Below, one piece after another: positions 3,361-13,689 of a stretch of DNA of 64,000 bases. The DNA is from Sulfitobacter alexandrii. GTDB taxonomy: Bacteria; Pseudomonadota; Alphaproteobacteria; Rhodobacterales; Rhodobacteraceae. Both the position numbers and the translations under genes were made by a program. The notes beneath the pieces were generated by a model. It was not told the DNA's origin. It ran no database searches and saw only the letters and a program-made list of their open reading frames with translations. The stretch covers positions 186,001-250,000 of the forward strand of contig NZ_CP018076.1 of the NCBI RefSeq assembly GCF_001886735.1, given 5' to 3'. Each line of letters starts with the position of its first letter. Position 1 is the stretch's first letter.

Positions 3361-4458
3361 ATGTCAGACAAGCTGATCGACGACGAGGAAATCCGCCTGG
3401 CCCTGCTGCGTGGATACAACATCCTCGATACGGCGCCGGAAGAGGGCTTCGACGATATCGCGCGGCTGGCGGGTGCGATCTGCGAGACGCCTATCGCGCT
3501 GGTGTCCCTCGTCGAGAAGGAGCGCCAGTGGTTCAAGGCGGTTCAGGGTTTGGATGTCGGCGAAACACCGATCCAGATGAGCATCTGCGCCCACGCGATC
3601 CAATCCGGTGATTTCCTCGAGGTTCACGACACCACCAAGGACCCGCGCACGGCGGAAAATCCATTGGTCGTCGGGGACGAGAGCATCAGGTTCTATGCCG
3701 GCGCGCTGCTCAAGAACGAAGAGGGCGTGGCGGTGGGGACGCTTTGCGTGCTGGATCGAAAGCCGCGCACGCTGAACGACATGCAGCGAAAGACGCTCAA
3801 GATCCTTGCCAACCAGGTGATGCGCCATCTTGAGCTGCGCGAGGCGCTGGGCGCCGCCGAAATGCTGCGCCGTGAAGTCGACCACAGGGTCAAGAATTCG
3901 CTGCAATCGCTGGAGGCGTTGATCCGCATCCAGACCCGGTCGGTGAAAACCGATGAGGCTCGCGAAGCGCTGGAGGCGGTGCAGGGGCGGCTCGCAATGG
4001 TCAGCAACCTGCACGAGGCGCTGTACCTGTCGGATGCGGGCGCCATGGTGAACCTTTCGACCTTCCTCAACCGGGTGGTGCAAACCGCGTCGGGGCAGAT
4101 GCCCGAAGGTATCATCGTCCGCCACGAAGTGGCCCCGTGCAAGCTGGAATCCCGTGCCGCTTCCTCGGTCGGCATGGTCGTGAACGAAGCTATCGCCAAC
4201 GCGTCGAAATACGCTTTCGAAGGACGCGACAAGGGGGCTTTCGACATCGTTGGCAAGGTCGATGGCGACGATTACGTCCTGACCTGTGCGGACGACGGGG
4301 GCGCGACCGATACGCAGACCGGCGGTGTGCAGACGATCGTCGGAACGGGCCTTGGCATGCGGATCATGCAGGCGGCCGCCCAGCAGCTGGGGGGCGAGCT
4401 GAAAGCCGAGGTGGGCGACAAAGGTCACGTCGTGACGCTGCGCTGGCCCCTGAACTGA
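3361..4458 (+). CDS. GAF-domain sensor histidine kinase, HisKA_2/HWE-like
   Basis: A 365-residue soluble sensor kinase without membrane segments. Residues about 20-160 form a GAF domain (ILDTAPEEGFDDI start, FYAGALL and GTLCVLD strands typical of such GAFs). The dimerisation/phosphoacceptor region has REVDHRVKNSLQSL, with His175 the likely phosphorylated residue, as in the HisKA_2 group. The ATP-binding domain has the N-box NEAIANASKYAF (275-286) and a glycine-rich GTGLGMRI segment (328-335). Kinases of this class in alphaproteobacteria often work in light, redox or general stress (PhyR-type) signalling, but no response regulator is next to it here, so the output is unknown. It stands directly upstream of the uncharacterised cluster starting at 4585. 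Confidence 0.88.
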   Translation: MSDKLIDDEEIRLALLRGYNILDTAPEEGFDDIARLAGAICETPIALVSLVEKERQWFKAVQGLDVGETPIQMSICAHAIQSGDFLEVHDTTKDPRTAENPLVVGDESIRFYAGALLKNEEGVAVGTLCVLDRKPRTLNDMQRKTLKILANQVMRHLELREALGAAEMLRREVDHRVKNSLQSLEALIRIQTRSVKTDEAREALEAVQGRLAMVSNLHEALYLSDAGAMVNLSTFLNRVVQTASGQMPEGIIVRHEVAPCKLESRAASSVGMVVNEAIANASKYAFEGRDKGAFDIVGKVDGDDYVLTCADDGGATDTQTGGVQTIVGTGLGMRIMQAAAQQLGGELKAEVGDKGHVVTLRWPLN

Positions 4459-4513: not shown

Positions 4514-4542
4514 GTGACAGGCGATGTATGTCGCCATAACAT
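4514..4542 (+). promoter_or_regulatory. candidate sigma-70 promoter of the 4585-12046 cluster, with a dyad in the spacer
   Basis: GTGACA (4514-4519) and TAACAT (4537-4542) are separated by 17 bases, matching 5 of 6 and 4 of 6 consensus bases. The spacer contains a perfect inverted repeat GGCGA (4520-4524) and TCGCC (4531-4535), which could be a repressor or activator site. The surrounding 100 bases are clearly more AT-rich than the coding sequence. Assignment is by pattern only. Confidence 0.4.
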
Positions 4543-4584: not shown

Positions 4585-5661
4585 ATGCCGAACTTGGAGG
4601 CACAGGTCAAGGAATCCCAGTCGCAGGTCGCGCAGGCCCAGTCGAAGATTGCCGAGCTGACCAGCAGGATCGAAACCGCCCGCGCCAAGCTCAAGGCCGG
4701 CGACGACGCGATGATCGACATCGAAAACGCGTCGCTTGAAGATGTTCACGCACATACCGACGTGATGAACGCGAATATCGCGGAACTGATCATGGGTCTG
4801 GACGATGTGACCGCCGGGTTCAGCCGGGACTTCGACGAGATGCGCAGCAAGACCGGCATGGAGACGTTCATTGGCATTTTTTCCCGTGCCAAGGCCGAAA
4901 GCATGCGGCAGGAACGGGTTCGCGCCGCTTCCATCGATGACAAGCTTCAGGATCTGATCAGCAAATCCGACGTGATCGTCAAACTGCTCGAGGGGCAGTT
5001 GGCGATGCTGGAGGAACAGAAGGTCAAGGTGGAGAGCAACCTGACCGAGACCCTGGACGAACGCGAGCTGACGGTCGGAGAACTGGAAACGATCCGGGCC
5101 GACATCGGGCGCATGGACACCGATATCATCAAGCTGGAGAATGCGATCGCGTCGGAGGCGGACGCGGCCAAGCGCACCAAGCTGGAAACCGAACTGGCCG
5201 AGGCGAATGCGAAGTACAACGCGCTTGTACAGGAGGAACAGGTCAAGCTGGCCAAGTCCCAGACGCTTGAGCGCTACATCGAGAAGGGCAAGACCTGGAT
5301 CGACTCGTTGCAGAACCAGGCGGCGACGCAGATGGTGCTCATCAACAAGCTTCAGACCGATACAAAGCAGCGCGTGGTGCTCTATGACGCGCTGACCAAG
5401 TCACTGAAAACCGCGCAGCAACAGGACGTCGCGCACCGGATCAACGAGATCGGCGTGAAGACGGATCAGGAGGCGCAATCGGCCATGGCCGGGATCGGGG
5501 CCGCCACCAACGCGCGCATGGCAGAGATGATGGAGAAGCACGAGGATCACATGGTCTTTGCCCGCGAGGTGCTGGAGGCCAAGGCCAAGGCGGATGAGCG
5601 TTTCGCGCGACGATTTGCCAAGATCATCGAGAAGCACGACAGCAATCAGTATGGCGGGTAG
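4585..5661 (+). CDS. long coiled-coil protein, possibly TelA-like; first gene of the uncharacterised cluster
   Basis: A 358-residue, strongly charged, almost entirely alpha-helical protein with no signal peptide or membrane segment. Heptad-like Glu/Lys/Gln-rich helices occupy nearly its full length, broken by a short non-helical stretch around GMETFIGIFSRAK (about 92-104). The arrangement of long helices and the QNQAATQMVLINKLQ segment remind me of the TelA/KlaA toxic-anion-resistance family, but that is an impression that profile comparison would have to confirm. Start choice: ATG at 4585 has GGAG six bases upstream; an in-frame ATG at 4573 has its only GGAG one base away, so 4585 is preferred. 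It overlaps the next gene by 11 bases, which points to a shared message. Confidence 0.75.
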   Translation: MPNLEAQVKESQSQVAQAQSKIAELTSRIETARAKLKAGDDAMIDIENASLEDVHAHTDVMNANIAELIMGLDDVTAGFSRDFDEMRSKTGMETFIGIFSRAKAESMRQERVRAASIDDKLQDLISKSDVIVKLLEGQLAMLEEQKVKVESNLTETLDERELTVGELETIRADIGRMDTDIIKLENAIASEADAAKRTKLETELAEANAKYNALVQEEQVKLAKSQTLERYIEKGKTWIDSLQNQAATQMVLINKLQTDTKQRVVLYDALTKSLKTAQQQDVAHRINEIGVKTDQEAQSAMAGIGAATNARMAEMMEKHEDHMVFAREVLEAKAKADERFARRFAKIIEKHDSNQYGG

Positions 5662-5902
5662 ACCGAAGTCCGAGGTTCCGCTCTGGCCGCTGGGACTGCT
5701 TGCGCTGACGGCTCTGCTTTTGTTGGTCAGTCCGCTGATTTCCATACCGCGATGGCTGTTGGTTGCCGTGCTGGTCGTTGGCAGCTTTCTTGCCTTCGCC
5801 TTTAAATGGTATTTGATGTTCAAGGCCACGGATCGGTGGGACGTAAAACAAGCCGTGATGCGCAAGCGGGTCATCGACGGATTGAAAAGCAAGGATGACT
5901 GA
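5651..5902 (+). CDS. small two-helix membrane protein of the uncharacterised cluster
   Basis: An 83-residue protein with two hydrophobic segments, WPLGLLALTALLLLV (about 12-26) and WLLVAVLVVGSFLAFAF (about 35-51), separated by a short Pro-containing turn, and a basic C-terminal tail ending in KSKDD. It has no recognisable domain. It overlaps the coiled-coil gene by 11 bases and the following gene by 8, so translation is probably coupled. A plausible role, by position only, is to anchor the coiled-coil or ATPase component at the inner membrane. Confidence 0.7.
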   Translation: MAGRPKSEVPLWPLGLLALTALLLLVSPLISIPRWLLVAVLVVGSFLAFAFKWYLMFKATDRWDVKQAVMRKRVIDGLKSKDD

Positions 5903-7016
5903 CCCAACCCTCGACCACGTCGGCATCACCGACACTTTCGCCAGCCGCCGCTACTTCGCCAAGTTCGAGCGGATCATGCAGCACATGCTGCACGTGGCGG
6001 GCGTGATGCAGGCGGAAGGCGCGTTGAACAACGAAGAGATCGCCATCCTTACCCGCTATGCCGCCAAGCTGACGCACAGTTTCCGCGCGCTCGGTTACAA
6101 GTACCTGCTGGTCGGGCGTGAGACGGGGCGGTTCTTCGGCTCGTTGACCATGGACAACCGCGACAGCGGCTTTCCGGTGGCGGCAGAGATCATGACCATG
6201 GCCAACGACGCGCAGCAGGCGGCCACCCGCCTGCAGAACATGCCCTCGGAGGCGCGCCTGAAGGACGAGATGGTCCAGACCATCCTTGGCGACCGGGAAA
6301 TTCCGACCAAGCTGCAATTCGCCCTGTCGCAGCGGCTCTATTACGCCGAACTCGCGCGGGGCGACCTTTTCTGGGTGCAGAACGATCCGCAGGCGGCATG
6401 GATGGGCAATGTCAGCGAGGGGCGGCGGCGGTTCCGGCTGCACTGGGCTTCGTACGACACGGAGGTAAACCTGCCGGTCATCTACCTGATGGAACTCGAG
6501 GATTCGGGTCGCGTCGGTCTGCCCAAGGACGAACGCCGATGGCCCGAGGTGCAGGCGCACCTGAGCGCGCAGGCACTTGGCGGGCTGAAGCTGCTGACCA
6601 TCGCGCGGGGCTTCGATCAGGATTTCGACGACCTGCACCCCAAGCGGCTGCGCCGGTTCCATCTGGGGCCGATGTACAGCCACGCCTACACCCGCCAGGC
6701 CGGCCCCCTGCGGGAGGTGCTGGCGGAGGCGAACGCGCCCGCCGGCCAGGACTGGGCGCTGGTCTGGACCGAGGAAGAACTGGTCAGCGACCGGGTGATC
6801 GAAGAGAAATCCGGTTGGTTCTCCACGGTCGAGCGGGAGGTTTTCGCGCTCGATCCCTTCGGTGTGCAGGGTCCGGAGCTGGGCGCCACGCGAATGGAAC
6901 GCAGCATCATCCTGCCCCAGCGTCCCTATCAGGTGCTGGAAGAGAAACGTCCCCCCGGCTTTGCCTCGGTGCGGAAATACGTGGTCAGCCCTAACGGACG
7001 TGTTCTTCGATATTAG
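5895..7016 (+). CDS. uncharacterised 373-residue protein of the cluster
   Basis: Not recognised. It is a soluble protein without signal peptide or membrane helix: an N-terminal helical half (about 1-165) and a C-terminal half with alternating strands rich in Arg, Trp and acidic residues, such as RFRLHWASYD and RRFHLGPMYSHAYTR. No catalytic motif is evident. The C-terminus (RKYVVSPNGRVLRY) is basic and beta-like. It starts 8 bases inside the small membrane gene and is followed after 53 bases by the AAA+ ATPase gene, so it is probably a dedicated partner of that ATPase. Codon use matches its GC-rich neighbours. Confidence 0.65.
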   Translation: MTDPTLDHVGITDTFASRRYFAKFERIMQHMLHVAGVMQAEGALNNEEIAILTRYAAKLTHSFRALGYKYLLVGRETGRFFGSLTMDNRDSGFPVAAEIMTMANDAQQAATRLQNMPSEARLKDEMVQTILGDREIPTKLQFALSQRLYYAELARGDLFWVQNDPQAAWMGNVSEGRRRFRLHWASYDTEVNLPVIYLMELEDSGRVGLPKDERRWPEVQAHLSAQALGGLKLLTIARGFDQDFDDLHPKRLRRFHLGPMYSHAYTRQAGPLREVLAEANAPAGQDWALVWTEEELVSDRVIEEKSGWFSTVEREVFALDPFGVQGPELGATRMERSIILPQRPYQVLEEKRPPGFASVRKYVVSPNGRVLRY

Positions 7017-7069
7017 CGGCGTCGTGCCGCAAGAGTGTATTTATTGAACAATGAAGACGAGTTTGAGAC

Positions 7070-9007
7070 ATGAGCCAGACATCTGACGCGATGGAGCTTC
7101 GGGAAGAGGATATTGCAAAGCACGTGAGCGTGGCGCTCTCGCTGCTGGAGGGGTTCGACCATGCGCCGCGCATCGGCAAGGCCACGGATGAAGCGCCCGG
7201 GTCAGAGCGGTCGCCGGGGATCGGCACGCGGCGGCGGTTCCGCAGCACCACGCCGGGTCTGGCCGCGCGCCGGACCACACCCAGCGGTGCGGTGCAGCTT
7301 CTGGCGCGGATCGAGGGCGCGGATGATGGGGACACGCTGGTCTCGCCCCTGCAGGCCACCGTCATGCATGCCCTGCGGCGTGCCATCGCCACCGCGCTGG
7401 CAGTGGCCGAGAACGTGGCCGAACAATCCGGCCTGGGCGATCTGAAACGCGCGAACCTCGAAGGGTCTCTGCCTGCCGCCCGCAAGTCCGAGTTTTCCGA
7501 ACTGCTGGCGGCGGAGGCGCTGGTGACGCTTTATGTCTTCGGCAATGCCACCGCCTATCTGCTGTCGTCGCATCTGTCCGAAACGACGGTCGAGGTCGGC
7601 GATGTGGATGAGGTGCTGACAGACAACGGCCAGACCGCCCTGCATGGCGCGCTGTGGGAACTGGATCAGGACATCGCGGCGCATGCGCAGGACGACGCGC
7701 GGCTGGTGGCCACGGTCAGCGCCTTTGCCGAGGCGCTGATGGAAAAGGTCGCCCTGCGCGGCCAGACCGCCCCGCGCCTAGAGGGGTTCAGGGGCGCGTC
7801 ATGGCGGGTCGAGGCGGATGATTTCACCGTTGCCGGGTTCAGCCCCGCGTCCAAGGCCAAATCCACCAAGCTGACGATGACCTTCAAGAAGCCGAACGAG
7901 GTCGTGGGCAACCACATCGCCAAGTACCAGGCGATGAAGCTGGCCAAGATGCTGATGGCCTACGACTTCGACCGGCGGCTTAACCCCTTTGCGGAACTGG
8001 GCGGCTTCATCTTTACCTTCATGGGGGACGGTGCGCCGGGGACGGGCAAGACGACCCTGATCCAGATGATGGCGGGGCTGATCAGCGAATATTGCGGCAA
8101 CGCGGGCTATCCGTTCCGCTATCAGAACCTGAGCACCGACAACATCGACAGCTATCAGGGCAAGTCGGGACAGAATGCCAAGGCTTTCATCAATACCATC
8201 ATCGACCCTTCGGTGATCGGCTTCGGCACCATCGACGACATCGACCAGCTCGCGGGCAAGCGCGGCGACCGGCAGTCGAGCGCGGGCCAGCTGGAGATCA
8301 CGGCGGTGCTGATGGAAAGTTTCGCGGGGGCGAACACGGTGGTGCGCGGCAACTGCACCTTTGGCATGTTTTCCAACTATCCCGAGAACGTGGACGATGC
8401 CCTGCGCCAGCGCGCCGGGGCGCGGTTCCTGGTGGACGGCCCGCAGACGCGGGAGGACTACGTCGATATCCTGTATCTGCTGATGGGCAAGAACCACGAC
8501 ATCCCGCTGGGCGATCACAATGTGTTCGAGGCGCAGGCGATCAAGAAGGCGGTGGCGGCGTCCTTCGAGAGCCATTCGAAGCCCCACGAAGCTGGATTGC
8601 TCAAGGTCTACGAAGCGGTGCGGGCCGAGGTCGGGGAACTGGACACGATCAACAAGCTGGGCACCTACCTCAAGGGCATCCAACAGGCCGACAACCGGTT
8701 TACCGGCCGCGCGATCAAGAACATCACCGATGCGGTCAAGGTGCGGGCGATGGATTTTGAATTGCCCGACGAATGGATGGAGAACCCGGACCTGTTCCTG
8801 TTCAAGGGATACGACGAGAAGAAAGCGATGATCGAGGACATGCGCCAGCCGATCACGGTGGAGATGGTTGTGCAGGAGATCAACCGCTACGCCGACAGCG
8901 AATTCCGATATGCCGACAAGTCGGACGAGGTGGCGATCGAGAACGCCGTGCGCGAGATGGGGCGGATGGAAGAGGCGAAGAAGCGGTATTTGGGGGGGAA
9001 GGCGTGA
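7070..9007 (+). CDS. AAA+ family ATPase of the uncharacterised cluster
   Basis: A 645-residue protein with a C-terminal AAA+ module after about 310 residues of unrecognised, largely helical sequence. The Walker A motif GDGAPGTGKTT lies near residues 319-330, the Walker B-like strand VIGFGTIDDIDQLA near 382-395, a sensor-1/arginine-finger region FGMFSNYPENVDDALRQRAG near 425-445, and a sensor-2-like TGRAIKNI near 543-550. The ATP-binding strand is preceded by a predicted hydrophobic FIFTFMG. It has no protease domain. AAA+ proteins of this layout remodel protein or membrane complexes; the other cluster products are the obvious candidates as substrates or adaptors. The gene has only weak ribosome-site sequence before its ATG. 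Its stop overlaps the GTG of the AT-rich gene that follows. Confidence 0.85.
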   Translation: MSQTSDAMELREEDIAKHVSVALSLLEGFDHAPRIGKATDEAPGSERSPGIGTRRRFRSTTPGLAARRTTPSGAVQLLARIEGADDGDTLVSPLQATVMHALRRAIATALAVAENVAEQSGLGDLKRANLEGSLPAARKSEFSELLAAEALVTLYVFGNATAYLLSSHLSETTVEVGDVDEVLTDNGQTALHGALWELDQDIAAHAQDDARLVATVSAFAEALMEKVALRGQTAPRLEGFRGASWRVEADDFTVAGFSPASKAKSTKLTMTFKKPNEVVGNHIAKYQAMKLAKMLMAYDFDRRLNPFAELGGFIFTFMGDGAPGTGKTTLIQMMAGLISEYCGNAGYPFRYQNLSTDNIDSYQGKSGQNAKAFINTIIDPSVIGFGTIDDIDQLAGKRGDRQSSAGQLEITAVLMESFAGANTVVRGNCTFGMFSNYPENVDDALRQRAGARFLVDGPQTREDYVDILYLLMGKNHDIPLGDHNVFEAQAIKKAVAASFESHSKPHEAGLLKVYEAVRAEVGELDTINKLGTYLKGIQQADNRFTGRAIKNITDAVKVRAMDFELPDEWMENPDLFLFKGYDEKKAMIEDMRQPITVEMVVQEINRYADSEFRYADKSDEVAIENAVREMGRMEEAKKRYLGGKA

Positions 9008-9795
9008 CAAGCTCCGAAAACCGCGCTTTGGTGAAGGTCTTTCCCTATCGTCTGTCCGTTAAGGAAATTCGAATGCTGTCGGAAGATCAGCAAGCTCTAT
9101 TTGGGCTTGTAAACTACGCCGCGTCCGAATTGAACGCTCTTCAACGTGTCTATATTGGATTGTCGCACAGCGTAGTCTCCGAACCTTGGCTAGATGCAAC
9201 AATTCTTATTCAGAGAAATTCGATCTTAAGGGTTTGGTCGGCAAAGATCTTTGAGTTTTTTGATTGTATTGAACAGCTTGTGAATAAGAAAGGCCTAGAT
9301 GCAGTCGTTCGTAACTTAGTAGACGAAGCTGAAAGGGAACTTGTTCAACTACGTGCCGATGATGGATACGCTTTGGTTCGGAACGTCCGTCACGAAGCAA
9401 CTAACCACTTCTCTTTCAAGGCAGCAAAAAAGAATCTTCCGTATTTGGCTGATCATGCGGATTGTAATCTCTATCTGCACGAGCTTGATGGAAATTCTTA
9501 CTATCCGATGGGCGAAGAACTGATGTTCATTGCCCGTCTTAATAGGCATGGGGCAAACCTTTCGAGCAAAGAGGAAAAAGCTAAAGCACTGGATGACTGG
9601 ATGGAATGGAACTTCAAAGCAAACGCTTGGGTGCGAAAGTTCCATCTCGCCGTTTTCAAGAGGGTTCTGGATGGCCAAGTTCCAGATAGATTTGCGAGAG
9701 AAACTTGGAAATGGGTGGATCCAGTGTTGGTTGCTGATACGAGCCCACCCACGGCACCGTTGTTCCTTCGAAAGACCGCCCCATGCAGCGCCTGA
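9004..9795 (+). CDS. AT-rich inserted gene, unknown function, HEPN-like motif
   Basis: A 263-residue protein encoded in sequence visibly richer in A and T than anything else in the window, with codons such as ATT, AAT, TTG and AGA that its neighbours avoid. It begins at a GTG overlapping the ATPase stop and ends 13 bases inside the next gene, so it sits exactly between two genes that read as natural neighbours. The protein is helical and has no membrane segment. A helix beginning ELNALQRVY and a central RNVRHEATNH (126-135) fit the R-x4-6-H pattern of HEPN nucleases, but that pattern is short and can occur by chance. I do not recognise the family. Composition and position indicate horizontal acquisition. 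Confidence 0.7.
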   Translation: MTSSENRALVKVFPYRLSVKEIRMLSEDQQALFGLVNYAASELNALQRVYIGLSHSVVSEPWLDATILIQRNSILRVWSAKIFEFFDCIEQLVNKKGLDAVVRNLVDEAERELVQLRADDGYALVRNVRHEATNHFSFKAAKKNLPYLADHADCNLYLHELDGNSYYPMGEELMFIARLNRHGANLSSKEEKAKALDDWMEWNFKANAWVRKFHLAVFKRVLDGQVPDRFARETWKWVDPVLVADTSPPTAPLFLRKTAPCSA

Positions 9796-11138
9796 TCAAA
9801 CGCGGCCTCATGTTCGGCAACCTCTTCCACGTGGATTCGCCCGCGCTGGTCGACCGTTACAACCGTGCGCTGCAGCATCTGACCGGCAAGCGCACCACAG
9901 AAACTGATTTCCACATCGACATCTCCGGCTATTCCCCCGAAGTGGGCGACGAGCTGGGCGATCACCTCTATCTCAACCATGCGGGCGTGAACCGGCAGTT
10001 CATCCTGCTGAGCATGGAACAGCGGACAGCGCCCTTGTTGAATGCGAAATTCTCCACCTCGCGCGGCATTCTCCAGCAGTTCATTGCCGAGAACGAGGCG
10101 CAGCTCTTTGCCCTCACCGCCCGCGACGCGGTGGCGGGGGAGTTGGTGAACTCCGTCTTCGACGTGTCGGAGCCACGGCGGCTTTTCGACCTCAGACGCG
10201 TGAAGGTGGAGGCGGATACCACCGCGGGCACCGTGCGCGACGCGGAAAAGCTGGGGCAGATGGTCGAGCGGTTCAGGACCGAGAAAGACGGCTGGTACGA
10301 CGATGTGCTGATCGCGCAGATGATCGAACTGGCGGGCAAGACCGGGGATGTGGTGCGCAACCCGGTCAAGCTGCGCCAGATGTCATTTGACCAGCGGAAC
10401 TTCTGGACGGCGCATTTCGGCGGGCTTTACCTGTTTCAGGATCTGGATCATCCGGCGGTCGTGGCACCCTCTGGCAAGGATCATCTGGGCGATCTGCCGA
10501 TCAAATATGTCTTTGACGCCGACGACCGGAACCAGCTTGCCAAGTTTTTCGAATACAACGGCTTGACGGAAACGATTGTCGAGGCGCGGGGCATCAACTC
10601 GGCCGCGATCCTGCGGCAGAAGATGGATTTCATCCTGATCGACGCGGTGGCGGACGAGGGCGGCGACCTGACCGGCGCCACCCGCGCTGACATGCGGCGT
10701 CTGGCACGGGAGCATGCGGGCAAGCTGCCCGAAGAGTTTCACGCGCTGGGCGCGCTGGTGAACTGGGCCGAGAACGGCGGCAACTGGCCGCGCATCACCT
10801 CGGACCATCCGGCCTATTTCTATACCCTCCGCGCGAGCGATACCAAGGATGCGGAACTGGTGAACATGCTGCTGGCCGAACTGGCCCCCAAGGACGCGCG
10901 GCAGATGTTCATCTGCCACAAGGAACTGTTCTACAAGACCTATGCGCGCTGGCCGGAGGCGAAGAAGGCCTATGTTGCCGATTTCCTTGTGGCCGAGTAT
11001 CAGGTGGACAAGGCGGGCGCGCGGGCGGCGCTGTTCGGGCACGACGCCCCGATGGAGCCGCCGGCCCCCAGAAAACCCGACCCGGTGTCCGACCTGATCG
11101 CCCGCGTCGGTCCCTGGGGCGCGGTGAGGGAGAGATAG
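9783..11138 (+). CDS. uncharacterised 451-residue protein of the cluster
   Basis: A soluble protein without signal peptide or recognisable catalytic motif. The N-terminus (RLIKRGLMFGNLFHVDSP) is the kind of sequence I associate with a conserved, unnamed roseobacter family. The body alternates helical and mixed segments, and the C-terminal 30 residues, beginning APMEPPAPRKPDP, look disordered. Six or more Trp and many acidic/aromatic surface residues suggest a protein-interaction role. Its ATG lies inside the end of the AT-rich inserted gene; without that insertion it would follow the ATPase gene closely. It ends one base before the next start (TAGATG). Likely a core component of the cluster; function unknown. 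Confidence 0.7.
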   Translation: MQRLIKRGLMFGNLFHVDSPALVDRYNRALQHLTGKRTTETDFHIDISGYSPEVGDELGDHLYLNHAGVNRQFILLSMEQRTAPLLNAKFSTSRGILQQFIAENEAQLFALTARDAVAGELVNSVFDVSEPRRLFDLRRVKVEADTTAGTVRDAEKLGQMVERFRTEKDGWYDDVLIAQMIELAGKTGDVVRNPVKLRQMSFDQRNFWTAHFGGLYLFQDLDHPAVVAPSGKDHLGDLPIKYVFDADDRNQLAKFFEYNGLTETIVEARGINSAAILRQKMDFILIDAVADEGGDLTGATRADMRRLAREHAGKLPEEFHALGALVNWAENGGNWPRITSDHPAYFYTLRASDTKDAELVNMLLAELAPKDARQMFICHKELFYKTYARWPEAKKAYVADFLVAEYQVDKAGARAALFGHDAPMEPPAPRKPDPVSDLIARVGPWGAVRER

Positions 11139-11405
11139 ATGTTTGCACTGGCGCGTCTCGTGGTCTTCGGCTTCGTCGTCCTCACGGTGATCTACGTGTG
11201 TCTCTCGTACTATTCGCGGAGCGTTCGGCGCGCCAAGCTGCGCAAGAAATGGTACGACGGCAAGCAGTTGGTGGACCGTGAGACGTTTGTGCAGCGCGGT
11301 CTTGAACGCTATGACGGCTCCATCCGGCGCAAGCTGATCCTTGGCGTCTACATCGTGCCCGTCGTGGTGGTCGGCGCGATCATCTATCTGACCAATTTTT
11401 CCTGA
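11139..11405 (+). CDS. small membrane protein of the uncharacterised cluster
   Basis: An 88-residue protein with an N-terminal hydrophobic helix (LVVFGFVVLTVIYVCL, about 7-22), a basic central stretch (RSVRRAKLRKKWYDGK) and a C-terminal helix (LGVYIVPVVVVGAIIYL, about 69-85). The central loop is strongly positive, so it should face the cytoplasm with both termini outside. It directly abuts the preceding stop and is followed after 11 bases by the DUF1523 gene. No family recognised. Confidence 0.7.
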   Translation: MFALARLVVFGFVVLTVIYVCLSYYSRSVRRAKLRKKWYDGKQLVDRETFVQRGLERYDGSIRRKLILGVYIVPVVVVGAIIYLTNFS

Positions 11406-11416
11406 GAGGGGCCAAC

Positions 11417-12046
11417 ATGGCGATTATCAAGTGGATTTTCTGGATCACCATCTGGGTGCTGGTGGCGGCCTTCTTTCACTACACCTTGCCGCAGGTCGAT
11501 ATCGTGCGGATCACGGACACCTACGAAAAACGTGTCGATCCGGGCGAGAATTCGCTTTTCTGGGCGCAGGCCGATGTCGGCACGGACGGGACGCTGGCGA
11601 ACCGGGACGTCTTCTTCATCCAGACCCGGCGTGCCAAGGGCGACGTCATGGTCTATCGCAACGAGGACACCGGCTGGGGTTGGCCGCCCTATTTCAAGTT
11701 CGACACGTCCAACCTGCAGGCAGAGGCGGCGGACGCGAAATCGACGGAGGCTTCTCCGGAGTGGTACGCGATCAAGCACTACGGCTGGCGCAACGAATTC
11801 CTCACCACGTTTCCCAACGCCATCTCCATCCGCCGGGTAGAGGGGCCGGACGCATCCAAGGGGATCCCTTGGATGAACATCATCATCATCACGCTGTTCC
11901 TGGCGATCGTCTATGCCATCTGGGTGCGGTGGCGGCGGTTCCGTCGTGCGCGGATCGACCCGACGTTGGAGGCGATCGAGGATGATCTCTACCAGAAGCG
12001 GCAGGGAGTCTCGCGCTGGTTCGAGAAACGGCGCGCGCCCAAGTAG
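11417..12046 (+). CDS. DUF1523 family membrane protein, last gene of the cluster
   Basis: A 209-residue protein recognisable as DUF1523 from the N-terminal helix followed by HYTLPQVDIVRITDTYEKR, the central MVYRNEDTGWGWPPYFKFDT and the C-terminal helix followed by RWRRFRRARIDP. Two membrane segments (about 4-22 and 157-176) flank a domain of about 130 residues that should be periplasmic. The function of the family is unknown. A GAGAGGGGCC ribosome site precedes ATG at 11417. As the terminal gene before a strong terminator it probably belongs to the same transcript as the AAA+ ATPase, making the cluster a mixed cytoplasmic and membrane system. Confidence 0.82.
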   Translation: MAIIKWIFWITIWVLVAAFFHYTLPQVDIVRITDTYEKRVDPGENSLFWAQADVGTDGTLANRDVFFIQTRRAKGDVMVYRNEDTGWGWPPYFKFDTSNLQAEAADAKSTEASPEWYAIKHYGWRNEFLTTFPNAISIRRVEGPDASKGIPWMNIIIITLFLAIVYAIWVRWRRFRRARIDPTLEAIEDDLYQKRQGVSRWFEKRRAPK

Positions 12047-12090
12047 GCCGCGGACCCGGCAAGGTCCGGCGCGCCCGAGACCGGCAACCG

Positions 12091-12125
12091 GCCCCGCCGC
12101 GCACATGCGCCGCGGGGCTTTTCTT
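12091..12125 (+). terminator. rho-independent terminator closing the uncharacterised cluster
   Basis: GCCCCGC (12091-12097) pairs with GCGGGGC (12112-12118), and inside it GCGC (12099-12102) pairs with GCGC (12107-12110) around an ACAT loop, with one C-C mismatch. A TTTTCTTTG tract follows. It lies 45 bases after the DUF1523 stop. Confidence 0.85.
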
Positions 12126-12202: not shown

Positions 12203-12607
12203 ATGCCAAAGCAGGTCAAGTCCGTCGACACCGAGAAGATCACGATCAACCTTGGGTACGTGGACCTGGGGCGCATCGACCTGCTGGTGCAGGAAGGGTT
12301 CTACACCAACCGCACCGATTTCATCCGCGCCGCGATCCGCGCGCAACTGGGCGAACACACCACCGAGGTGGGCGCCCTGATCGAGCGGCGGACACTGGAC
12401 ATCGGTCTGCGCGATTTCACCCGCGCGGATCTCGAAGCGGCCCGCGACGCGGGCGAGCTGTTGCACATCAAGGTCGTGGGACTGGCCCGTCTGGCCCCCG
12501 ACATCACGCCCGACCTGGCACTTGCCACGATCGGCTCCATCACGGTGCTGGGCGCCCTTCAGGCCCCGGCAGAGATCAAATCAGCCTTGAAAGACCGGAT
12601 CGAATAG
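12203..12607 (+). CDS. CopG/ribbon-helix-helix type transcriptional regulator
   Basis: A 134-residue cytoplasmic protein. Residues about 11-50 resemble a ribbon-helix-helix DNA-binding domain: a short beta strand (EKITINLGYV), then helices with the NRTDFIRAAIRAQL signature typical of CopG/NikR-like proteins. Such proteins bind DNA as dimers at short inverted repeats, and one lies just upstream (12176-12189). The C-terminal 80 residues include a TIGSITVLGALQAP segment that may oligomerise or sense a ligand. A strong AAGGGG ribosome site precedes ATG. It is followed after 26 bases by a PHB-depolymerase-type esterase and may regulate that operon. Confidence 0.75.
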   Translation: MPKQVKSVDTEKITINLGYVDLGRIDLLVQEGFYTNRTDFIRAAIRAQLGEHTTEVGALIERRTLDIGLRDFTRADLEAARDAGELLHIKVVGLARLAPDITPDLALATIGSITVLGALQAPAEIKSALKDRIE

Positions 12608-12633
12608 TCCGGCACACCCGGTAAGGAAACCAC

Positions 12634-13689
12634 ATGAACGACGATTTCGCGACGGCCATGCGCCGGTCGCTTGCCTTGACGCGCGCCGGTGACCCCGGTG
12701 CGGCGACCCGCGCGATACAGGAACATCTGAACGGCGGCACCATGCCAGCGGCGACCGCTACACGCACGCTCCGCACCCGCGCGCCGCTGGGCGACGTGCT
12801 CAAGGGTCTGGCGGGCAAGGTCAACGGCATGCCGCAGCCGTCCGCCGTGTCGGTGCCGCTTGCCCCCGGCGCGACCTTCGAGCCGCGCCAGTACAGCGGC
12901 CCCCACGGCGCGCGGTCCTACCACCTTTACGTGCCGTCCTGCGACAAGGCCCACCTGCGCGGACTGATCGTGATGCTTCACGGCTGCACGCAGAACGCGC
13001 AGGATTTCGCGGCCGGTACGGGCATGAACGCCCATGCGGAGCGCAACAACATGCTGGTCGCCTATCCCGAGCAGACGCAGGGCCACAACGCGCAGCGTTG
13101 CTGGAACTGGTTCGAGCCGGGCCACCAGTCCGCCGCGTCGGGTGAACCCGCGCTGCTGGCGGGTCTCGCGACGGAGCTGGTCCGCGACTTTGGCCTGCCT
13201 GCAGGCTGCACCTTTGCGGCGGGGCTGTCGGCCGGCGGGGCGATGGCGGCGATCCTCGGTGCGACGCTTCCGGACGTGTTTCGCGCCGTGGGCGTGCATT
13301 CGGGTCTGGCCCCCGGTGCCGCGCGCGACGTGATGTCGGCCTTCGCCGCGATGCGCGGCGACGACACCGCGCGCAACCTGTCGCTGCCGTGTGCCGCGAT
13401 CGTTTTTCACGGTGCAGGCGACACGACGGTCGCACCGGTCAACGCCAGCCGCCTGACAGGCACCCTGTCGGACGCGCGGCGGACGACCGGCACCGCGGGG
13501 GGCCGCGGCTATAGCGTGACCAGCGGCAAGACGGGCGAAGGCCACCCGATGGAGCTGTGGATGGTCGAGCGGACGGGCCACGCGTGGTCCGGCGGGTCGC
13601 GGCAGGGCAGCTACGCCGACCCCGCAGGGCCCGATGCCTCCGCCGAGATGATGCGTTTCTTCAACATGATGATCGAGAGCGACAAATGA
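12634..13689 (+). CDS. PHB depolymerase family esterase
   Basis: A 351-residue alpha/beta-hydrolase of the esterase-PHB-depolymerase family, which cleaves polyhydroxyalkanoate or other hydrophobic polyester or ester substrates. It shows the oxyanion motif MLHGCTQNAQDFA (from 114), the lipase box GLSAGG with Ser199, a likely catalytic Asp in HGAGDTTV (about 272) and His in TGHAWSGG (about 321). No classical signal peptide is visible; the first 85 residues are low-complexity linker-like sequence, so it may act on intracellular granules or leave by another route. It overlaps the following C45-type gene by ATGA, and follows the RHH gene after 26 bases. Confidence 0.85.
   Translation: MNDDFATAMRRSLALTRAGDPGAATRAIQEHLNGGTMPAATATRTLRTRAPLGDVLKGLAGKVNGMPQPSAVSVPLAPGATFEPRQYSGPHGARSYHLYVPSCDKAHLRGLIVMLHGCTQNAQDFAAGTGMNAHAERNNMLVAYPEQTQGHNAQRCWNWFEPGHQSAASGEPALLAGLATELVRDFGLPAGCTFAAGLSAGGAMAAILGATLPDVFRAVGVHSGLAPGAARDVMSAFAAMRGDDTARNLSLPCAAIVFHGAGDTTVAPVNASRLTGTLSDARRTTGTAGGRGYSVTSGKTGEGHPMELWMVERTGHAWSGGSRQGSYADPAGPDASAEMMRFFNMMIESDK

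Follow-up and report, generated by a model that had tools for sequence, protein, structure and literature searches.

We analysed a stretch of 64,000 nucleotides from Sulfitobacter alexandrii (NZ_CP018076.1, positions 186,001 to 250,000; hereafter the window), which lies in contig C1 of a genome of 4.69 Mb, and focused on a cluster of eight open reading frames (ORFs), all on the plus strand, at window positions 4585–12046. An earlier note on this DNA had described these overlapping same-strand ORFs, which are indeed present, and had read them as a single machine at the inner membrane. B (4585–5661) encodes a coiled-coil protein, C (5651–5902) a protein of 83 residues, D (5895–7016) a protein without a convincing match in the PDB, E (7070–9007) an AAA+ ATPase, F (9004–9795) the product of an AT-rich gene with a GTG start, G (9783–11138) a DUF6638 protein, H (11139–11405) a protein of 88 residues and I (11417–12046) a DUF1523 membrane protein. 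Neighbouring ORFs overlap at B/C, C/D, E/F and F/G, with the start codon of F overlapping the stop codon of E as GTGA. Our comparisons show that the locus is not an eight-part machine: it comprises four core genes (B, D, E and G), two membrane companions (H and I) and two cargo genes, of which C occupies the junction between B and D (slot 1) and F that between E and G (slot 3).

Pfam assigns E to the AAA family PF00004 (44.4 bits, cut-off 21.2), G to DUF6638 (PF20343; 786 bits, cut-off 27) and I to DUF1523 (PF07509; 231 bits, cut-off 23), which confirms the ATPase and the DUF1523 protein named in the earlier note. It gives no match above cut-off for B, C, D, F or H, and none of the eight proteins scores above the cut-off of an NCBIfam model. 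Simple hydropathy predicts two membrane segments each in C, H and I; none is predicted in B, D, E, F or G. The G+C content of F is 46.6%, against 60–65% for B, D, E and G. The window E shares 97% identity with a Sulfitobacter porphyrae protein.

Searched singly, B, D, E and G were found in the identical 70 of the 121 genomes of the window's order and were absent from the other 51. Each occurs once per genome, except for a short additional E fragment in G076. We fetched 68 of the 70 clusters, leaving out the window itself and G049, in which the coordinates of the four genes are also adjacent. The gene order B-D-E-G-H-I holds without exception in these 68 clusters and the window, with H undetected in L103. 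B, D, E and G are thus a core that is inherited all-or-none and in fixed order, and its absence as a block from 51 genomes indicates that it is dispensable. The earlier note had proposed co-occurrence in the same order as a check; the four core genes pass it, and C, F, H and I do not. Among 143 distinct loci, C is found in one and F in eight, and H and I exist without the core. The earlier observation is therefore real, its unit was mis-drawn, and its interpretation is partly supported, the single machine surviving as four genes instead of eight. DUF6638 is not mentioned in the literature searched, which agrees with the claim that the machine was undescribed; as far as our searches show, the core is unstudied. 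It represents a conserved machine for which family searches gave no name past an AAA domain and a DUF.

To describe the junctions, we counted a slot as occupied when more than 150 bp separate neighbouring core genes, using 136 distinct roseobacter loci with measurable cores. Slot 3 is occupied in 122 and slot 1 in 92 of these, and the distance between D and E exceeds 150 bp in 6 of the first 69 loci. The gaps between G and H and between H and I are at most 81 and 28 bp, respectively (67 loci); given this difference, insertions prefer two junctions. The inserted ORFs are closely fitted to their neighbours. In the 58 loci with an ORF in slot 3, the first one starts −30 to +15 nt from the E stop codon in 46 and overlaps E by exactly 4 nt in 23, while the last one overlaps G by 4 nt in 34. 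Slot 3 inserts have a lower G+C content than E in 106 of 122 cases, by a mean of 7 points.

Slot contents turn over between closely related loci. Among 177 locus pairs with 88–92% DNA identity in E, slot 3 is unrelated in 162, related in 13 and empty on both sides in 2, whereas G is related in all 177; these pairs derive from 41 loci, many of them from Ruegeria, and so are not independent. In the 84–88% band (44 pairs), slot 3 is unrelated in 25, related in 14, empty on one side in 4 and on both in 1. It is unrelated in one of three pairs at 92–97% and in none of one pair above 97%. The nearest relative that we detected is Sulfitobacter sp. EhC04 (L130; E 95% identical); it carries neither C nor F, and the two sequences diverge at the end of E. 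Some composite slots retain fossil ends of core genes, with E-values of 3e-10 or better: the 3' end of E in L046 and L153 and the 5' end of G in L074 (3 of 122 slot 3 inserts), and the 5' end of D in L068, L142 and L147 (3 of 92 slot 1 inserts). L154 and L167 give weaker matches (0.004), as does L142 for B (1e-4); swapped-end controls gave just three matches, at 0.004–0.009. From these fossils we infer the swapping route: they suggest that cargo was stacked by recombination through core-gene ends.

Slot 3 holds 71 ORFs of at least 150 residues, or 70 once near-copies are removed, some of them probably spurious, and these fall into 33 BLAST families, most of which Pfam does not name. The largest family has 17 members, among them those of L037 and L075, which are putAbiC (PF16872) proteins; others comprise nine F relatives (F included) and four relatives of a DUF4145-like protein. 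At 1e-3, Pfam matches among the 70 are Mrr, putAbiC, AbiJ_NTD4 and HATPase (two each) and RNase_T/BRCT, DUF3825, thioredoxin-like, DUF2971 and DUF4145 (one each). Among small cargo, proteins of about 113 residues with many hydrophobic stretches form the most frequent family (24 of 69 loci), and slot 1 of L062 contains a Phd/YefM antitoxin with a partner ORF. F is named by no family library searched, and Pfam gives no family above cut-off for F or for L090, L100, L162 and L209. An R129-x5-H135 motif is invariant in all eight aligned sequences (F and seven relatives; a ninth row was left out for wrong coordinates), and we take it to resemble the HEPN RNase motif R-x4-6-H. Cargo of these kinds (restriction nuclease, abortive-infection, HEPN-like, toxin-antitoxin and small membrane proteins) suggests a role in defence against phages or foreign DNA.

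The core proteins themselves offer clues to the activity of the machine. The 22 aligned E proteins retain the Walker A motif (GDGxPGTGKTT in the window), a sensor asparagine and arginines where the AAA module ends, as well as a Y-Q-G motif that is invariant. Positions 389–390 are an invariant DD in all 22 and also in Vibrio and Sinorhizobium E. We take this pair to be the Walker B motif, with DD replacing the usual DE, and the Y-Q-G presumably sits at the pore-loop position of threading AAA proteins; the other motif assignments are likewise ours. The best matches of the AAA domain are FtsH-type, fidgetin-like and VPS4 chains. With these motifs retained, E should bind ATP, and it probably hydrolyses it and pulls on a protein. 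B, D and G accompany E even at 40% E identity, which argues for one complex. The model of D reached a pLDDT (predicted local distance difference test) of 85.5 and a pTM (predicted template modelling score) of 0.85, and fold searches with it returned no convincing known fold. The B model is helical and poor (pLDDT 66.6), with two helices of about 88 residues, and fold searches with this low-confidence model gave helical bundles of many kinds.

The membrane components behave differently from the core. DUF1523 is present in 117 of the 121 genomes of the order, with or without the core, so that I does not depend on it. We fetched 12 loci from the 47 core-less genomes with DUF1523 and detected H beside I in 9 of them; H and I are therefore a membrane pair of roseobacters whose occurrence does not require the core. 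G007, G029, G074 and G119 have a second DUF1523 gene outside the cluster. Since B, D, E and G have no predicted membrane segment, the placement at the inner membrane advanced in the earlier note falls back on H and I. Membrane companions vary by lineage, as described below, and docking is probably an add-on. A core-less locus of the same genus (L104) has the layout of the window neighbourhood without B–G: H and I directly follow a gene for a kinase 59% identical to that upstream of B in the window, with a gap of about 40 bp between kinase and H. The window kinase (A, 3361–4458; GAF and HisKA_2/HWE) had been proposed as a signalling neighbour of the machine. Of 143 distinct loci, only 4 have it next to the core; it is not a conserved partner. 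Such a kinase also precedes the core in L130, L139 and L140, and in the core-less L104 it precedes H–I.

Upstream of B, on the plus strand, we identified a 19-bp dyad (4524–4542; consensus ATGTAA-N7-TTACAT, two mismatches in the window copy). It overlaps the promoter noted earlier at 4514–4542, whose sigma-70-like site is at chance level (2 found, 2.3 expected). With at most two mismatches, the dyad occurs within 160 bp upstream of B in 75 of 139 distinct loci, leaving 64 without it at that threshold, and most copies start 59–69 bp upstream of B. The same search upstream of D, E, G, H and I gave none in 132–143 loci each, and shuffled upstream regions (145 loci, duplicates included) gave a mean of 0.85 and a maximum of 2. 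In the 3.29 Mb of fetched sequence, counted with duplicates, dyads with at most one mismatch number 61 before B and 3 elsewhere, the latter being a single place within E in three Vibrio records; the reversed control gave 1. The window dyad is the sole copy in the window (0.22 expected), and six B-upstream regions from outside the order have none within 260 bp of B. We describe the dyad as operator-like and specific to this locus. At the other end of the cluster, the previously reported strong terminator is not in the output of a terminator scan; its fold energy nevertheless supports it, with a plus-strand hairpin at 12090–12119 folding at −25.9 kcal/mol (z −3.6) and a T-rich tail next to it extending to 12126. 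Downstream, at 12203–13689, lie genes for an RHH_8 regulator and a depolymerase-like hydrolase (named by eye), a pair that adjoins the cluster in the window only, among the 143 distinct loci.

The core extends beyond the window's order. DUF6638 was detected in 26 of 398 genomes sampled across the phylum; of these, 14 belong to the window's family, 11 to the rest of the class and one (G202) to another class, in which 1 of 274 sampled genomes has it. The G202 locus (L230) has H and I too, and its DUF6638 score of 623 bits, inside the range of the window's family (552–833 bits), points to horizontal transfer. Of the 12 outside loci we fetched 10, each of which has the four core genes in the order B-D-E-G. 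One family (f25) contributes eight loci, where G is followed by a gene for a DUF2333 protein and neither H nor I was found. E was also detected in 10 of 72,556 plasmid records (Sinorhizobium 4, Vibrio 4, Shinella 1, Rhizobium 1), of which 6 were opened, 2 of them unannotated. On S. meliloti pSymB (L266) the order is B-D-E-DUF559 endonuclease-IS4 transposase-G-DUF2333. DUF559-type endonuclease genes at the E–G junction outside the order were seen in L266 (by Pfam) and in L232, L233, L236 and L239 (by eye). On a Vibrio megaplasmid (L265), the profile-confirmed B, D, E and G are contiguous, with no intervening gene, and share 39, 28, 40 and 26% identity, respectively, with the window proteins; B is preceded by two unnamed genes without predicted membrane segments. 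Two more Vibrio records have the same layout, from annotation only. L265, L267 and L270 are plasmid-labelled replicons of 0.88–0.94 Mb with a common stretch in which the cargo-free core is followed by mfd. In L231 (6099–7790; G401), PspA-like coiled-coil, YiaA/B-like membrane and TetR-type genes (by eye) adjoin the core, a possible envelope-stress link.

Given these features, we favour, with moderate confidence, the reading that the core is an AAA+ machine for protein remodelling and that its operon houses interchangeable effectors, probably for anti-phage defence. B, D, E and G would form one soluble machine in which E, a ring ATPase of the classical AAA+ type, pulls on a protein, and the long coiled coil B, together with D and G, would be its partners, adaptors or substrates. 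H and I may dock the roseobacter machine to the membrane, rhizobia having DUF2333 at the same place; we infer both this docking and the ATPase action. Accessory genes would be exchanged at the B–D and E–G junctions, probably by homologous recombination via the neighbouring core-gene ends, and an incoming gene often retains the 4-nt stop/start overlaps and would thus be co-produced with the machine. The core would then be a sensor or regulator and the cargo its exchangeable effectors or back-ups. We base the proposed defence role on what the cargo encodes and how it is coupled, and not on the core. A bolder version, which we consider rather unlikely, makes the core an immune socket, an AAA+ sensor/regulator controlling any effector plugged into either junction. 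Cassettes would be swapped via core-gene ends, and the same trigger would lead to membrane, RNA or DNA killing by lineage. If the core does control its cargo, it would constitute a common switch for interchangeable effectors.

Several results weigh against the favoured reading. PADLOC at 1e-5 matches about 5 of the 70 cargo proteins (Mrr 2, DEDDh/PDC-S48 1, PDC-S31 1, DrmA 1; the table counts by family, and we take the matches as five different proteins), and most cargo belongs to no known family. Beyond weak matches of E to the defence models TRIP13 (5e-6) and IetA (0.008), and of B, along its coiled coil, to a model of a type II enzyme (8e-4), the core proteins have no defence-family match. 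Structure models showed no partners, and neither 50,697 phage records nor IMG/VR pattern scans yielded the core. Across 63 genomes, after six with a split match were dropped, identity in E tracks identity in a housekeeping protein (Pearson 0.67, Spearman 0.49), so that descent of the core is largely vertical, with some transfer, unlike that of many defence systems. Both slots are empty in 11 of 136 distinct loci, and cargo is thus not needed. On the other side, a control with 55 flanking genes comparable in length produced no PADLOC match at 1e-5; it drew a single gene per locus from 55 of the 70 loci, the other 15 having no gene that passed the filter, included 8 sulfotransferases and was not matched for family age or composition. 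The slots behave as a natural trap for effector-like genes, though the tested flanking genes show no defence island.

The vertical descent of the core and its cargo-free loci are equally what would be expected if it were a housekeeping or stress machine, such as a complex remodeller, with slots that serve as safe landing pads without any functional link. This alternative is plausible, if short of an even chance. It agrees with the Vibrio loci that have no gene between the core genes, with the eight f25 loci, whose E–G junctions contain a DUF559-like ORF (by eye) in four and no ORF of at least 70 residues in the other four, and with flanks whose first-listed Pfam families are metabolic, flagellar and regulatory. 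However, neutral landing pads fit poorly with insertions that gather at two junctions and spare G–H and H–I, or with a core that is missing en bloc from many genomes. The VPS4-like matches of E and the two long helices of the all-helical B raise a further option, quite improbable in our view, in which E dismantles B filaments at a membrane held by H and I, as in remodelling by the endosomal sorting complex ESCRT-III and VPS4. The PspA-like gene beside the core relative L231 would suit it, yet B has no ESCRT-III or PspA family match above cut-off, the fold matches of its low-confidence model are mixed helical bundles, E has no MIT domain in Pfam, and the Vibrio core has no adjacent membrane-segment gene among the genes checked. 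We regard it as extremely improbable that B belongs to the TelA type and that the cluster is a Ter-like tellurite, colicin or phage-inhibition system. The idea arose from a visual likeness of the C-terminal half of B to TelA and from an earlier suggestion of tellurite, and both the profile search and the profile comparison reject it: the TelA model (PF05816) at E ≤ 10 finds one TelA gene elsewhere in the genome, not B, and HHalign probabilities with B are 0.4% and 0.5%.

Among known systems, type III CBASS (cyclic-oligonucleotide-based anti-phage signalling) was rejected, as the only match is that of E to TRIP13 at the AAA level (5e-6), with no cyclase or HORMA match. BREX (bacteriophage exclusion) was rejected as well, since Pfam and PADLOC found no PglZ, BrxC-type ATPase or methyltransferase among the eight proteins. 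The AAA domain of E is of the same broad class as those of ESCRT-III/VPS4 and classical AAA remodellers; unlike in the latter, the N-terminal ~300 residues of E, and B, D and G, match no such family. Embedded exchangeable effectors are a known idea (PMC12707154, PMC12839542), and the parts of these two sources available to us do not describe this core or this breadth of exchange. BREX and BREX-related loci that contain embedded nucleases combine a large conserved core, including an AAA+ ATPase, with variable embedded effectors (PMC12839542), an arrangement that the cluster shares. In the type IC restriction locus with embedded prrC (ecoprrI), an accessory effector backs up the core (PMC12707154), and both that locus and the cluster house an accessory effector gene within a multi-gene operon. 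Unlike ecoprrI, the core described here contains no recognised restriction or modification gene, and many unrelated cargo families occupy the same junction.

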